Below are positions 3,385-25,209 of a stretch of 42,097 nt of DNA, piece by piece. Position 1 is the stretch's first letter. Every line of letters starts with the position of its first letter. The stretch comes from Pseudonocardiaceae bacterium (GTDB lineage Bacteria; Actinomycetota; Actinomycetes; Mycobacteriales; Pseudonocardiaceae): assembly GCA_025924655.1 (NCBI GenBank), contig JAICHZ010000002.1, forward strand, positions 1-42,097, in the 5' to 3' direction. Both the position numbers and the translations under genes were made by a program. Below the pieces are notes generated by a model. It was given only the letters and a program-made list of their open reading frames with translations. It did no database searches and had not been told where the DNA came from.

Positions 3385-5848
3385 GATCGCTCCCTTTCCC
3401 GGTGTGGTCTGAGTCCTGCGGACGATCGCCCGGACGAGGGCACTGCCGGCGCAGCGGCGCCACCCACTCCTGCCCCGCGGCCAGCTCCCGGACCTCGTCG
3501 CCGATGCCGATGCGGACTGGTCGGCTGGAGCCCTCGGCGACGTTTTGCACCGTCAGCTCGTCGCCGGAGATGCTGATCCTGATTGAGGTACCACGGAACT
3601 GCATCGGGAAACTGAGCCCGTCGAGGCGGTCGGTGAGCGTCGGGTCGAAGTGCAGAACCCCGTCGCGCACGTTCGCGCCGACGTAGCCGCGCTGCAGGAG
3701 GTCCAGCGTGCCGGACATGACGCCCATGTGGATGCCCTCCTTGGTGGTACCGCCCTGCACGTCACCTATATCGCTTTCCAGCGCGACGAGGAACCGCTGC
3801 CACGAGCTCTCCGGATCCAAGGCGCCTAGCACGGCGGCGTGGGTGACCAGGCTCAGGGTCGAGCCGTGCGAGGTGCGCCGGTCGTAGTAGTCGATGGTCC
3901 GCCGCGCGAGGTCGGGGTCGTAGTCGTACCCGAGCCGTTCGAACAGCTCGCGGAGTTCGTCGCTGGAGAACAGGAAGAACAGCATCACCGTGTCGGCCTG
4001 CTTGGCCAGCTGGTACCGGTTGGGGTCGTCGCCTGCGGCCTTGAGGATGCGGTCCAGGCGTTGGATGTTGGGGTGCTCGGCGCGGTAACGCTCCCAGTCC
4101 AGCTCCTCGAGATCGGCGTAACCGTCGAACTGGCTGGGGATGCCGTCTGCGTGGAAGGGGACGAACATCTTGCGGCTCATCTCGTCCCACGTGCGCAATT
4201 CGTCGTCGGTCAGCCTGAGACGAGCCCGCAGGGCGGCGCGTCGGCTCCGCGGCAACAGATCGAGCACCCGCGGGGCCGTGGCGGCGATCCAGGCAACCAT
4301 CACGTTGGTATAGGCGTTGTTGCGCAGGCCACCTTTGTCGGCCCCGGGGTAGCGCTCGTGGAACTCGTCGGGACCCATCACCCCGTGGATCTCATACCGA
4401 TCGCGCTCAGCTGAGTAATGCGCGATGGAGGCCCAGAAACGGGCGATCTCAAGCATGAGCTCAGCACCGTAACCGCGAAGAAATGCCACGTCGTCAGTGG
4501 CCTGGTAGTACTGCCAGACGTTGTAGAAGATCGCCGCGTTGACGTGGCGCTGGTTATGGCTGTGGTCGGGGTGCCATTGCCCGGACAGCGGGTTGAGATG
4601 GACGACCTGCGTCTCCTCGGTGCCGTCGCTGCCGCTCTGCCACGGGAACATCGCGCCGGAGTAGCCGGCCTCCCGCGCCGCGGCCCGCGCCTCGGCCAGG
4701 CGGCGGTAACGGTACATCAATAACCCGCGGGTGACTTCGGGCAGCCGGAAGTTGAGGTAGGGGTAGACGTAGAGCTCGTCCCAGAACACGTGACCGCGGT
4801 AGGCCTCACCATTGAGCCCCCGAGCCGGCACTCCCGCGTCGTGCCGGGCGGTGTGCCGCGAGCACACCTGCAACACATGAGACACGTGGAAACGCAGCAG
4901 CAACTGCGCGCGAGGCTCGTGGGGAAGCTCGATGTCACCGATGTCCCACAGCTCGGCCCACGCTGCCTCGTGTTCGGTCAGGGCGGCAGCGAAATCCGGG
5001 TAGCGCGCGACGTTCTTTCCCGCCGCGACCAGGGTTTCGGCGATCGCGTTGTCGTGGGAGGTGAACAACGAGACCATCTTCTCCACCCGCACCGGGCTGC
5101 CCTGCTCGACGTCTAAGGCGAGAACCTGCTGGATGTAGTCCTCCATCTGGTACAGGCTGCGGGCGACTTCCCGCGGGGTGTCACCGTCGCCGCGGAAGAC
5201 GCGAGTGCGGGCGGCTTCAGCGATGTAGATGTTCGACTGCCGGGTCTGCACCTTCAGGGCGATGATCTCCGGGCCGAACGTGCGCGGGGACCACGGGTTG
5301 AGGTGACGGCCCTCGAGCTCGCGGTAGCGGGCAACCATGTGGTTCGTCATGCGACCATCGAGTCCGGAGATCACCTCCACGCGGCCTGACCAGTTGTCCG
5401 GAGTGAGCGTCCATTGGATTCCGGCCAAGTGGCTGTTGGCCATGCTCACGAAGCGACGGCTACGCAGGGTCGTGACGCGATCGATGCGGTCGCGGAACTG
5501 GAGCTCGCGCTCGACCACGGCGTTGCGAATGTCGTAGGAATGGCGATAGGAAAGCACCTCGACGTTGTCCAGCCGGACTGCTTCCTCGCCCTCGATCCGC
5601 AGCTTCAGCAGCAACCAGTTCGGAAGGTTCACCAAGTCCTCGTTGAGCACCGGGCGACCCCCGAGGATGGTGGTCTCCCGGTTGAAGCAGCCGTGGGCGT
5701 AGGTGCCTGGGTAATGCACCGCGCTCGCGTCCTCCCATTCAGCCGTACCCCGGGTGGCGAAGTAGCCGTTGCCGGTAGAAGTCAGGGCCTCTCGCAGACC
5801 TTCCTGCGCGGGGTCGAAGGCGTCGTAGGTGAGGATGAAGTCAGCCAT
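3365..5848 (-). CDS. Glycoside hydrolase family 65 protein (trehalose/maltose/kojibiose phosphorylase type)
   Basis: Start chosen at [112 protein letters not shown] are GH65 motifs. The ORF track extends to 7039 but upstream sequence is antisense to fbp. Confidence 0.9.
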
Positions 5849-21316: not shown

Positions 21317-21523
21317 GTGCTCGAGGTGCTCCAATGGTGGGACGGCGTGGAGCTGTGGCTCACCCAGCTCGGGCTCGCGCTGCAGGTGGCCCTGTTGATG
21401 CTGGTGTTACTGCCAGCCGTTTGGTGGGCGGCCCGGGTGCTTGATCGGGCTGTTGGTGTGGTCTTCGAACGGCTCGGGCACTGCTACACCGTGGACGCGG
21501 AGGATGCGCAGGAGCCTCGATGA
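21317..21523 (+). CDS. Small membrane protein, hypothetical
   Basis: 68 aa with one strong hydrophobic segment; ATGA overlap with next gene. Confidence 0.6.
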   Translation: MLEVLQWWDGVELWLTQLGLALQVALLMLVLLPAVWWAARVLDRAVGVVFERLGHCYTVDAEDAQEPR

Positions 21524-21948
21524 GCTCCCACCGGCGGGTCAGCGCCGCGCTGATCGGGCTGCTGGTATTGGTGGTCGTCGGCTGGGTGGGGCGTCACGCG
21601 CTGACCGACCCCGCTGCTGGGTCGCCCAGCAGTAACCGGCCCGCGGCGGTCGCCTCGGCGGCTGGCCTGCCGGTACAAGGTCTGTCGCAGTTACCGCCGC
21701 AGGTCGGGCAGGAGTGGCAGCTGCTCCAGCACGGTGGCCCGTTCCGGTACCGGCAGGACGGGGTGGTCTTCGGTAACCGGGAGAAGCACTTGCCGCCACG
21801 GCGGTCCGGCTATTACCACGAGTACACCGTCCCGACGCCGGGAGCGCATGACCGGGGCGCCCGGCGCCTGATCACCGGCGGTGCGGCCGAGCTGTACTAC
21901 ACCGGCGACCACTACGTGTCGTTCGTCGTGGTCGATCCGCAGCGGTGA
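21520..21948 (+). CDS. Secreted/membrane-anchored guanyl-specific ribonuclease (RNase Sa/barnase type)
   Basis: N-terminal TM LIGLLVLVVVGWVG; GPFRYRQDGVVFGNREKHLPPRRSGYYHEYTVPTPGAHDRGARRLITGGAAELYYTGDHYVSFVVVD. Confidence 0.88.
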   Translation: MSSHRRVSAALIGLLVLVVVGWVGRHALTDPAAGSPSSNRPAAVASAAGLPVQGLSQLPPQVGQEWQLLQHGGPFRYRQDGVVFGNREKHLPPRRSGYYHEYTVPTPGAHDRGARRLITGGAAELYYTGDHYVSFVVVDPQR

Positions 21949-22292
21949 GGCGGATGCTGCGCTATGTCCCCGATGCCGCTCGTGCGCTGGAGCAGGCCCG
22001 CGCACGGGGAGCGCTGGTGCACCTGCTGGGCCCGGTGACGAGTAAGGCGCAGGCGCTTGACGCGATCGGCACCGCGTTGAATTTCCCAGCCTGGTACGGC
22101 CGCAATCTCGATGCCCTGCACGACTGCCTCACTGACTTATCCTGGCAGCCCACCGGTGAGCACGTGCTGATCTGGACCGGCCACCGCCAGCTCGAAACCG
22201 CAGACCCTGACGGCTACCGCGCCATCCTAGAAGTACTAGACGAGACAACCAACCCGAACCGCCCCCTGTCATTCCTACTCGCAGATACCTGA
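21945..22292 (+). CDS. Barstar family ribonuclease inhibitor
   Basis: KAQALDAIGTALNFPAWYGRNLDALHDCLTDL; ATG/stop overlap with RNase gene. Confidence 0.9.
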   Translation: MRRMLRYVPDAARALEQARARGALVHLLGPVTSKAQALDAIGTALNFPAWYGRNLDALHDCLTDLSWQPTGEHVLIWTGHRQLETADPDGYRAILEVLDETTNPNRPLSFLLADT

Positions 22293-23426: not shown

Positions 23427-23442
23427 TCGAACCTGTGTTCGA
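23427..23442. promoter_or_regulatory. LexA binding site (SOS box)
   Basis: TCGAACCTGTGTTCGA, exact match to the actinobacterial palindrome TCGAAC-N4-GTTCGA; directly followed by TATAGT (23443-23448) as a plausible -10. Confidence 0.88.
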
Positions 23443-23479
23443 TATAGTGAATCGAGGCGATCGTGGGTGGGAGGTCGGT

Positions 23480-24418
23480 GTGACCATCATTGCTACCTCT
23501 AAGCTGCGCCGGATGCCGCCGTGGGACGAACAGGAGCGCGCGACGCTAGTCGCCCTGCTGCAGGAACGGCCGGAGGCCGCGTCATGGCCACAGGTCGCTG
23601 CCGAGATCATGGAAGCGGGCAGCGCGGGGTCAGTGTGGGACGCTGCCCACGCGCAGTCGTTATTCGACGCCGAGACCCCCGATCTGATCACCGAGGCAGC
23701 TCGGCACATTACCGATTGGCGGCGCGCTGGGCTGGGCGTGCATACCTTTCGCGATGTGTCATATCCGGCGCAGCTGCGGGAGATCCACCAGGTGCCGCCA
23801 GTTCTCTTCAGCCGGGGTGCCCTTCGCCCCGGCGAGCTGGCGGTGTCAGTGGTCGGTTCCAGGGAGGCCTCCGATCAAAGCCTGGACTGGGCGTTCGCGG
23901 TGTCGACAGCACTGGTGTCCGTCGGAGTCACCGTCGTCTCCGGCTTGGCGACAGGCATCGACACCGCCGCTCATACCGCGACGCTGGACGCCGGAGGTCG
24001 GACAGTCGCGGTGATCGGCACCGGGATCAACCGTGCCTATCCGGCCGCGAACCGGGAACTGCAGGAGCGCATTGCGTGCGAGGGCCTTGTGCTGTCCCAG
24101 TTTTGGCCCGATGCCCCGGCGACTAAGAAGTCATTCCCGCTGCGCAATGCGACGATGAGTGGTTACGGTCGAGCCACGATCGTCGTCGAGGCGGGAGAGA
24201 CCAGCGGTGCTCGGATCCAGGCGCGGGTGGGTGTGGAGCACGGCAGGCCGGTGATCCTGCGCGACTGCGTGGTGCGGGACAATGAGTGGGCCAGAGCGCT
24301 GCAGTACCGGCCGGGGGTGCACGTCGTAACTAGCGTGGACGAGGTGCTGAACGTCGTCGCCGTGCTGCGTCCCAATCTCGATGACGTCCTGACGGGCGTG
24401 CTCACCGTCGACCAGTGA
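23480..24418 (+). CDS. DprA/Smf-like (SLOG) DNA-processing protein, divergent paralog
   Basis: GTG at 23480 with upstream GGGAGG. VSVVGSREASDQSLDWAFAVSTALVSVGVTVVSGLATGIDTAAHTATLDAGGRTVAVIGTGINRAYPAANRELQERI..FPLRNATMSGYGRATIVVEAGETSGARIQARVGVEHGRPVIL. Confidence 0.9.
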   Translation: MTIIATSKLRRMPPWDEQERATLVALLQERPEAASWPQVAAEIMEAGSAGSVWDAAHAQSLFDAETPDLITEAARHITDWRRAGLGVHTFRDVSYPAQLREIHQVPPVLFSRGALRPGELAVSVVGSREASDQSLDWAFAVSTALVSVGVTVVSGLATGIDTAAHTATLDAGGRTVAVIGTGINRAYPAANRELQERIACEGLVLSQFWPDAPATKKSFPLRNATMSGYGRATIVVEAGETSGARIQARVGVEHGRPVILRDCVVRDNEWARALQYRPGVHVVTSVDEVLNVVAVLRPNLDDVLTGVLTVDQ

Positions 24419-25209
24419 GCCTCGGGGGCCGTCTTCTCGCCACCGGTAGGACGACAATCACTGAGCGGTTGGTGGCGGAGGCCAGCGGCTACCTTCGCAA
24501 CGTGGTGCACGAGTCCTACATGACCTGTGCAGTGTGCGCGACACCGATCAAATCCACTTTCGACCTGTGCCTGCGCTGCCGACGTGACCAGCATGAGTTC
24601 GGCGACGACCTTGCGGACCTGGTCGTCCCACTTTGCTACGGCATTCGGGGACGGCAGTCCGGGTATTTGATGCACAGCTATAAGGACCTCGAAGCGCCTG
24701 CCAAACACAACCAGACCCTGCTTAGCATGCTGCTGCTAGCTGCTCTGGAATGCCATGGCGGCTGCATCGAGCACCGACTCGGCCGCAACGTCGATGCTTG
24801 GACGTTCGTGCCGTCCGTTCGGAGCGATCGGACCGGTGAGCATCCGCTGCATGTGGTGGCGAAGCGCGCAGCAGGGGTGGCGCTACCCGAGATCGAGCTC
24901 ATGGCCGCTGAACATTTGGACCCACAGCAGCGTACAACCCGAGCCGACCGGTTTATCCTCGCCGCGAACAGCGACGTCCGAGATCGTCACATCTTGCTTT
25001 TCGAGGATACTTGGACAAGTGGCGGGAACGCCCAATCCGCAGCCCTAACGCTTCGTCGCGGGGACGCGGCGAGCGTCACGATCCTGGCACTCGCGCGATG
25101 GCTGAAGCCGGAGGAGCCACCCACCGGTGAATTCGTGTCGAGCCGGCTCACCGAGGATTACGACCCGCTCGTGTGCCCGGTGAGCGGCCAGCATTGCAGC
25201 GGCGACTAA
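24415..25209 (+). CDS. Zinc-ribbon phosphoribosyltransferase, ComF-like
   Basis: CAVCATPIKSTFDLCLRC (CxxC-x10-CxxC) and PRPP-loop-like RHILLFEDTWTSGGNAQSAALTLRR; 4-bp overlap with dprA-like gene. Confidence 0.85.
   Translation: MSLGGRLLATGRTTITERLVAEASGYLRNVVHESYMTCAVCATPIKSTFDLCLRCRRDQHEFGDDLADLVVPLCYGIRGRQSGYLMHSYKDLEAPAKHNQTLLSMLLLAALECHGGCIEHRLGRNVDAWTFVPSVRSDRTGEHPLHVVAKRAAGVALPEIELMAAEHLDPQQRTTRADRFILAANSDVRDRHILLFEDTWTSGGNAQSAALTLRRGDAASVTILALARWLKPEEPPTGEFVSSRLTEDYDPLVCPVSGQHCSGD

Follow-up and report, generated by a model that had tools for sequence, protein, structure and literature searches.

Why should a DprA-family gene be followed by a phosphoribosyltransferase (PRTase) gene in a single operon headed by an SOS box, and what might such a pair do for an actinobacterium? 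The operon lies in the window, the whole stretch of 42,097 nucleotides that was analysed, taken from a Pseudonocardiaceae genome, and a sequence-only reading had put it forward as a candidate stress or defence system. A role in defence is plausible, but the pair does not form an unknown class; it belongs to the known ShosTA / PsyrTA / RqlHI kind, and the operon is probably an SOS-controlled toxin-antitoxin and defence module of ShosTA type, in an actinobacterial subtype. On our analysis, the pair is a new DNA-damage-controlled actinobacterial variant of that toxin-antitoxin and phage-defence kind, to which toxicity and defence are ascribed from characterised relatives.

The layout described earlier, two genes on the + strand with a 4-bp overlap, is borne out; the overlap covers 24415-24418 and is the commonest shosA/shosT junction, seen at 24 of 48 resolved junctions. 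The features of the operon are as follows.

23427..23442, no strand: LexA/SOS box TCGAAC-CTGT-GTTCGA (TCGAACCTGTGTTCGA), a perfect TCGAAC-N4-GTTCGA and the exact actinobacterial LexA box.
23443..23448, + strand: candidate -10 element TATAGT, abutting the SOS box; TATACT in a same-genus scar, and relatives tend to show TA...T downstream of the box.
23469..23474, + strand: candidate Shine-Dalgarno sequence GGGAGG, 5 nt before GTG 23480; identical GGGAGG in the scar of genome G001.
23480..24418, + strand: shosA-like gene for a DprA/SLOG Rossmann protein, 312 aa from GTG; predicted antitoxin and DNA-binding partner (gene 1).
ATG 23513, + strand: alternative start of the shosA-like gene, yielding 301 aa and permitted by alignment with relatives.
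24415..25209, + strand: shosT-like gene for a 264-aa phosphoribosyltransferase with an N-terminal Cys4 zinc ribbon; predicted toxin (gene 2).
24526..24579, + strand: zinc ribbon CAVC-x10-CLRC, codons 38-55 of gene 2; four cysteines invariant in 49 sequences.
24991..25026, + strand: PRPP-binding loop ILLFEDTWTSGG, codons 193-204 of gene 2; D198, T199, W200 and G203 invariant in 49 sequences.

Because of the Shine-Dalgarno candidate at 23469-23474, GTG 23480 is favoured as the start of the shosA-like gene in this genus.

The motifs ascribed to gene 1 (GSREAS, SGLATGIDTAAH, GTGINRAYPAAN and FPLRNATMSG) are all present in the sequence, and its placement among DprA/SLOG Rossmann proteins is upheld by Pfam (DNA_processg_A, PF02481, E=8.3e-57). 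As had been noted, there is no winged helix after the Rossmann domain, and the protein measures 301-312 aa against 383 aa for the housekeeping copy. It matches the PADLOC ShosA model (E=1.6e-58), as do all of its aligned relatives (39/39), its profile finds the solved ShosA structures 8zva/9vzo at about 2e-37, and it retains the conserved arginine (GSR) in the DNA pocket. FPLRNATMSG had been taken for an altered form of the canonical FPxRNRIISG; it is not a product of decay, but an instance of FPxRNAxMSG, a near-invariant signature of the clade, in which F, R, N, M and S are invariant across 39 sequences and A follows RN in 32 of 33. Judged by sequence, gene 1 encodes ShosA, which in ShosTA systems is the DprA-like antitoxin, and its predicted role as antitoxin is taken from characterised relatives.

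The proposal of a dedicated second DprA was checked by looking for a canonical dprA elsewhere in the genome, and one was found, giving two DprA-family genes in total. The housekeeping dprA is located on another contig, between a comM-like ATPase gene and an xerC-like gene (neighbours named by sequence reading), and this comM-dprA-xerC locus rules out gene 1 as the only dprA of the genome. In a maximum-likelihood tree of 39 relatives of the gene 1 protein and 30 housekeeping DprA, gene 1 falls outside the housekeeping clade, the two lying on opposite sides of a branch with 100/99 support, while E. coli ShosA forms a long branch whose placement is unsure. In addition, gene 1 scores 165.2 bits against the DprA equivalog TIGR00732, under its cut-off of 191.15. 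Alternatively, the DprA-like protein might sense or cleave a signal made by the PRTase, as a SLOG/PRTase nucleotide-signal system would. The SLOG-family Rossmann fold and weak LDcluster4/LOG model matches are in keeping with such a system, but the match is to DprA (8e-57) and ShosA rather than to signal-binding SLOG families, with LOG-type models at 1e-4 or worse, and we regard it as very improbable. The nucleotide-derived signal envisaged by the earlier reading gains no support here; the published ShosTA mechanism is that of a toxin-antitoxin acting through disturbed purine metabolism and DNA damage.

In gene 2, the motifs CxxC-x10-CxxC and LLFEDTWTSGG are present in the sequence as claimed. 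That the protein is a PRTase is indicated weakly by the single sequence; among 49 aligned relatives, 42 hit Pfam Pribosyltran, and the AlphaFold model matches PRTases. Besides the four ribbon cysteines (C38, C41, C52 and C55) and the four loop residues listed above, Q81, Y89, K90, H114, P133, S134, Q207 and R228 are invariant in the 49 relatives. The model reached a pLDDT of 92.7 when built from the aligned family, which was needed, as the single sequence gave a pLDDT of 34. With Foldseek, the best solved structure was H. pylori ComF (7p0h, 1.1e-5), followed by purine PRTases, and ShosT 8zvb was ranked 19 (1.9e-4); because the TM-scores are modest (0.3-0.5), these matches support the fold class, not the function. 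Against the PADLOC ShosT model the protein itself gives E=0.0027, in the PRPP-loop region only, and 13/13 of its relatives match, the best at 9.9e-9; moreover, profile searches with the pair retrieve the solved ShosA and ShosT structures.

No HAD-like domain was detected by Pfam in the gene 2 protein or among the families listed for its 49 relatives; the HAD match in E. coli ShosT is itself 2.9e-4, under Pfam's cut-off, and ShosT proteins at large are not known to need the domain. We infer that any pyrophosphatase activity dependent on this domain is missing from the gene 2 protein. Since the ShosT match is limited to the PRPP-loop region and no HAD-like domain is present, substrate and mechanism may differ from those of E. 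coli ShosT. The possibility that gene 2 is simply the housekeeping ComF is ruled out by its score against TIGR00201 (24.9 bits versus a family cut-off of 233.55, which few control genomes pass either) together with a separate comF-like gene elsewhere in the genome.

SOS control of the pair had also been proposed, and the exact box is confirmed upstream; it is shared with lexA and dinB in this genome, and induction is predicted. The perfect LexA pattern occurs at 7 sites in the 3.74-Mb genome, whereas the backwards-read control pattern occurs at 0, and three of the other six sites precede lexA, a DnaE-type DNA polymerase III alpha gene and dinB, so that the motif can be recognised as the operator of the organism's SOS regulon. 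The box before gene 1 is a predicted operator of that LexA regulon, and, as TATAGT abuts it, bound LexA would cover the promoter. A chance occurrence is ruled out by the genome count and by conservation across loci. A further perfect box (G000:C78:8840-8855) directly precedes a gene for a 502-aa protein (L213:3-1508, - strand), which has no NCBIfam match and is a candidate member of the SOS regulon.

The distribution of the pair was followed through gene 2. A genome-wide scan with the single PRTase sequence as query returned no loci; an alignment query then succeeded, recovering 80 loci, all actinobacterial by their titles. ShosA lies directly upstream in 69 of the 80, so the PRTase is conserved beside DprA in relatives, as a dedicated pairing had implied, and ShosA is missing from the remaining 11/80. 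For the box count, the scan loci were combined with the window, two Gordonia phages and a plasmid, ShosA was clustered at 85%, and the 66 non-redundant loci with at least 200 bp upstream were used. The best LexA-box match before ShosA was perfect in 17 loci, with one mismatch in 22 and with two in 5; a box with at most one mismatch thus precedes ShosA in 39/66. Dinucleotide shuffling gives expectations of 0.025 boxes with one mismatch and 0.4 with two, and control stretches taken before other long ORFs of these loci gave 0/324 and 8/324, respectively. Because the loci were found via the PRTase, the count is not biased towards boxes.

No LexA box was present within the searched upstream stretch of 22/66 loci, and the mycobacterial members found are mostly without one. 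A second DNA-damage promoter, of PafBC type, has the motif TTGTCRGTG-N8-TANNNT. It was found just before the start, with at most two mismatches, in 4 of the 22 box-less loci against an expectation of 0.02 (mononucleotide shuffling), and in 0 of the 44 loci with a LexA box. In these four (L138, from Allorhizocola, L112, L075 and L129), promoters of PafBC/RecA-NDp type stand upstream of shosA instead of a LexA box, which suggests, from sequence, a switch of DNA-damage regulator. The temperate Burkholderia phage Mana (L202) has a perfect proteobacterial box, CTGT-N8-ACAG, 99 bp before the dprA-like gene (2067) of a DprA-PRTase pair, a single case that was given no weight.

Related zinc-ribbon PRTases without ShosA occur in L132, L145, L147, L148 and L150 (about 4700-5750 in each locus). 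Several of the ShosA-less PRTase loci, in Streptosporangiales-type genomes, adjoin an endonuclease III-like gene (nth), according to sequence reading only; the PRTases beside the nth-like gene are possibly a separate, housekeeping paralogue of the ShosT-like toxin. In L086 (1351-5765), a ShosT-like PRTase without ShosA lies downstream of an SbcC-like ATPase gene and a gene of no recognised kind, an arrangement that may represent another partnership of ShosT-like PRTases.

DprA and ComF are both linked to the uptake of single-stranded DNA. An alternative to a toxin-antitoxin is a repair or recombination accessory, with the DprA-like protein as a RecA loader for ssDNA, whether damaged or incoming, the ComF-like PRTase as a source of nucleotides, by supply or salvage, and SOS control as a reflection of this repair role. 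The conserved SOS and PafBC-type sites agree with this explanation, as do the nearness of the zinc-ribbon PRTase to ComF in fold and the statement in a review that ShosA promotes homologous recombination (PMC12593503). However, ShosA of the gene 1 type is patchily present (24/101 relatives), the pair is carried by phages and plasmids, relatives exist in which the PRTase gene is broken and the DprA gene open, and related pairs act as toxin-antitoxin systems (PMC9122126, PMC4670107). We therefore consider a repair accessory unlikely, and the ShosTA-type toxin-antitoxin module remains the preferred reading.

Carriage is seen in the temperate Gordonia phages Vasanti and Bosnia, where the pair lies near the integrase and repressor (with a LexA box of one mismatch in Vasanti and none in Bosnia), and on plasmids of Pseudonocardia, Rhodococcus and Mycobacterium. 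Within the genus of the window, the pair has been lost repeatedly. In genomes G005 and G008, the site is cleanly empty: the flanks, about 91% identical, are joined, and the whole 2.2-kb unit is missing from surroundings that are 90-94% identical. The pair is also missing from G006. G001 retains a deletion scar made up of the SOS box, the leader and the final shosT codons; in G003, shosA is open and the shosT region is frameshifted and 44 nt shorter; and G007 holds remnants of both genes. These records are draft assemblies, in which single frameshifts could be errors, but the scar and the empty sites are less easily put down to assembly error. A broken shosT beside a shosA that is still open is the pattern predicted by a costly toxin, and the pair is apparently both accessory and costly in the genus. 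A recent mobile-element insertion was considered and rejected: no obvious target duplication was seen by eye at the empty site, and loss from an inherited copy is a better fit than insertion, as same-genus genomes hold remnants at this very site.

The same observations bear on whether the pair is a superinfection or maintenance module, born on a prophage or plasmid and stranded in the chromosome, with an SOS box that couples it to prophage induction and mainly serves the carrier element rather than the host. Two Gordonia phages, one of them with an SOS box, as well as plasmids carry the pair, yet in the window no phage genes flank the pair, which is a bare 2.2-kb unit that is either present or absent, and several genomes of the genus hold remnants next to the same left flank, which implies that it was inherited there with the chromosome. 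Such a stranded module is quite improbable, more so than the repair accessory, and a host-serving toxin-antitoxin and defence module is preferred. Against that preference, none of the neighbours tested (barnase/barstar, enoyl-CoA hydratase, cbiX and cysN-like) was recognised as a defence gene. At 21520-22292 (+ strand), genes for a barnase-type secreted ribonuclease (PF00545, 1.5e-20) and a barstar inhibitor (PF01337, 2.7e-23) overlap; some 1.2 kb, with the enoyl-CoA hydratase gene, separates them from the ShosTA-like pair.

LexA repression and induction, toxicity, neutralisation, defence and substrate are projected onto the operon from characterised relatives, and on that footing it would work as follows. 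In a healthy cell, LexA on the box at 23427-23442 would block the promoter with the abutting -10 element. Upon DNA damage or phage replication, RecA would be activated and LexA cleaved, and both genes would be expressed from one overlapping message. The zinc-ribbon PRTase, as the toxin, would use up PRPP and/or make wrong nucleotides, disturbing the purine pool and hence DNA, while the DprA-family antitoxin would restrain the toxin and/or bind the resulting (ss)DNA and aid RecA-dependent repair. Should an invader overwhelm or divert the protection by ShosA, growth arrest or cell death would follow before phage release. There is an even chance that the actinobacterial DprA-PRTase pairs form a branch hard-wired to the DNA-damage response, mostly through LexA and through PafBC-type promoters in some box-less lineages, with a zinc-ribbon PRTase chemistry unlike that of E. 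coli ShosT and a defence that is armed by SOS rather than constitutive.

ShosTA reportedly acts via DNA damage and repair, and a conserved LexA operator offers a concrete and testable answer to the question of what triggers such systems in their natural hosts. As the operator recurs before related pairs across actinobacterial genera, on plasmids and in one phage, the timing at which defence is switched on can be tested. If a PafBC-type promoter indeed replaces LexA in some lineages, selection would be for the link to DNA damage and not for LexA itself. Moreover, many genes annotated as dprA in plasmids and phages of actinobacteria may encode antitoxins and not be competence genes, and gene 2 is a candidate for a compact PRTase toxin suited to studies of its chemistry.

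Among known systems, the antitoxin belongs to the DprA family in the toxin-antitoxin modules shosTA, syrTA and rqlHI, and the DprA-PRTase pair of a P2-like phage protects E. coli from T7 and lambda (PMC9122126). According to a review (PMC12593503, citing Pu et al. 2025), ShosT is a phosphoribosyltransferase and pyrophosphatase that disturbs purine metabolism and causes DNA duplications and filamentation, and ShosA is a DNA-binding protein that probably stimulates recombination. In the limited library of literature searched, no account of DprA-PRTase pairs under LexA control was found. The window pair resembles ShosTA of the E. coli P2-family phage (PDB 8zvb/8zva/9vzo; PADLOC models PDLC03961/PDLC03962 and PDLC02997/PDLC03012) in being a two-gene operon with ShosA first and the PRTase second, and in phage carriage. 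It differs in that E. coli ShosT, at 424 aa, begins with a HAD-like domain that precedes the PRTase, whereas gene 2 encodes 264 aa with a Cys4 zinc ribbon; E. coli ShosA has FVRRNR where the gene 1 clade has FPxRNAxMSG; and a LexA box stands upstream of the window pair, whereas none is present in the 147 bp examined before the E. coli gene. Compared with housekeeping DprA, gene 1 shares the Rossmann domain and the GSR and GxDxxAH motifs, but it lacks the C-terminal domain, carries another motif at FPxRN and belongs to a separate clade. The N-terminal zinc ribbon and PRTase of gene 2 are common to the ComF / GntX family, although its score falls far under the family cut-off. With RqlHI / PsyrTA, the pair has in common a DprA-family antitoxin and a toxic PRTase activity; in RqlHI, the toxin induces SOS, an effect that is lost together with toxicity when the PRPP pocket is mutated, and its activity is neutralised by the DprA-like RqlI (PMC4670107). 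The PRTase of these systems is fused to a RecQ-like helicase, whereas gene 2 encodes a small stand-alone zinc-ribbon protein.
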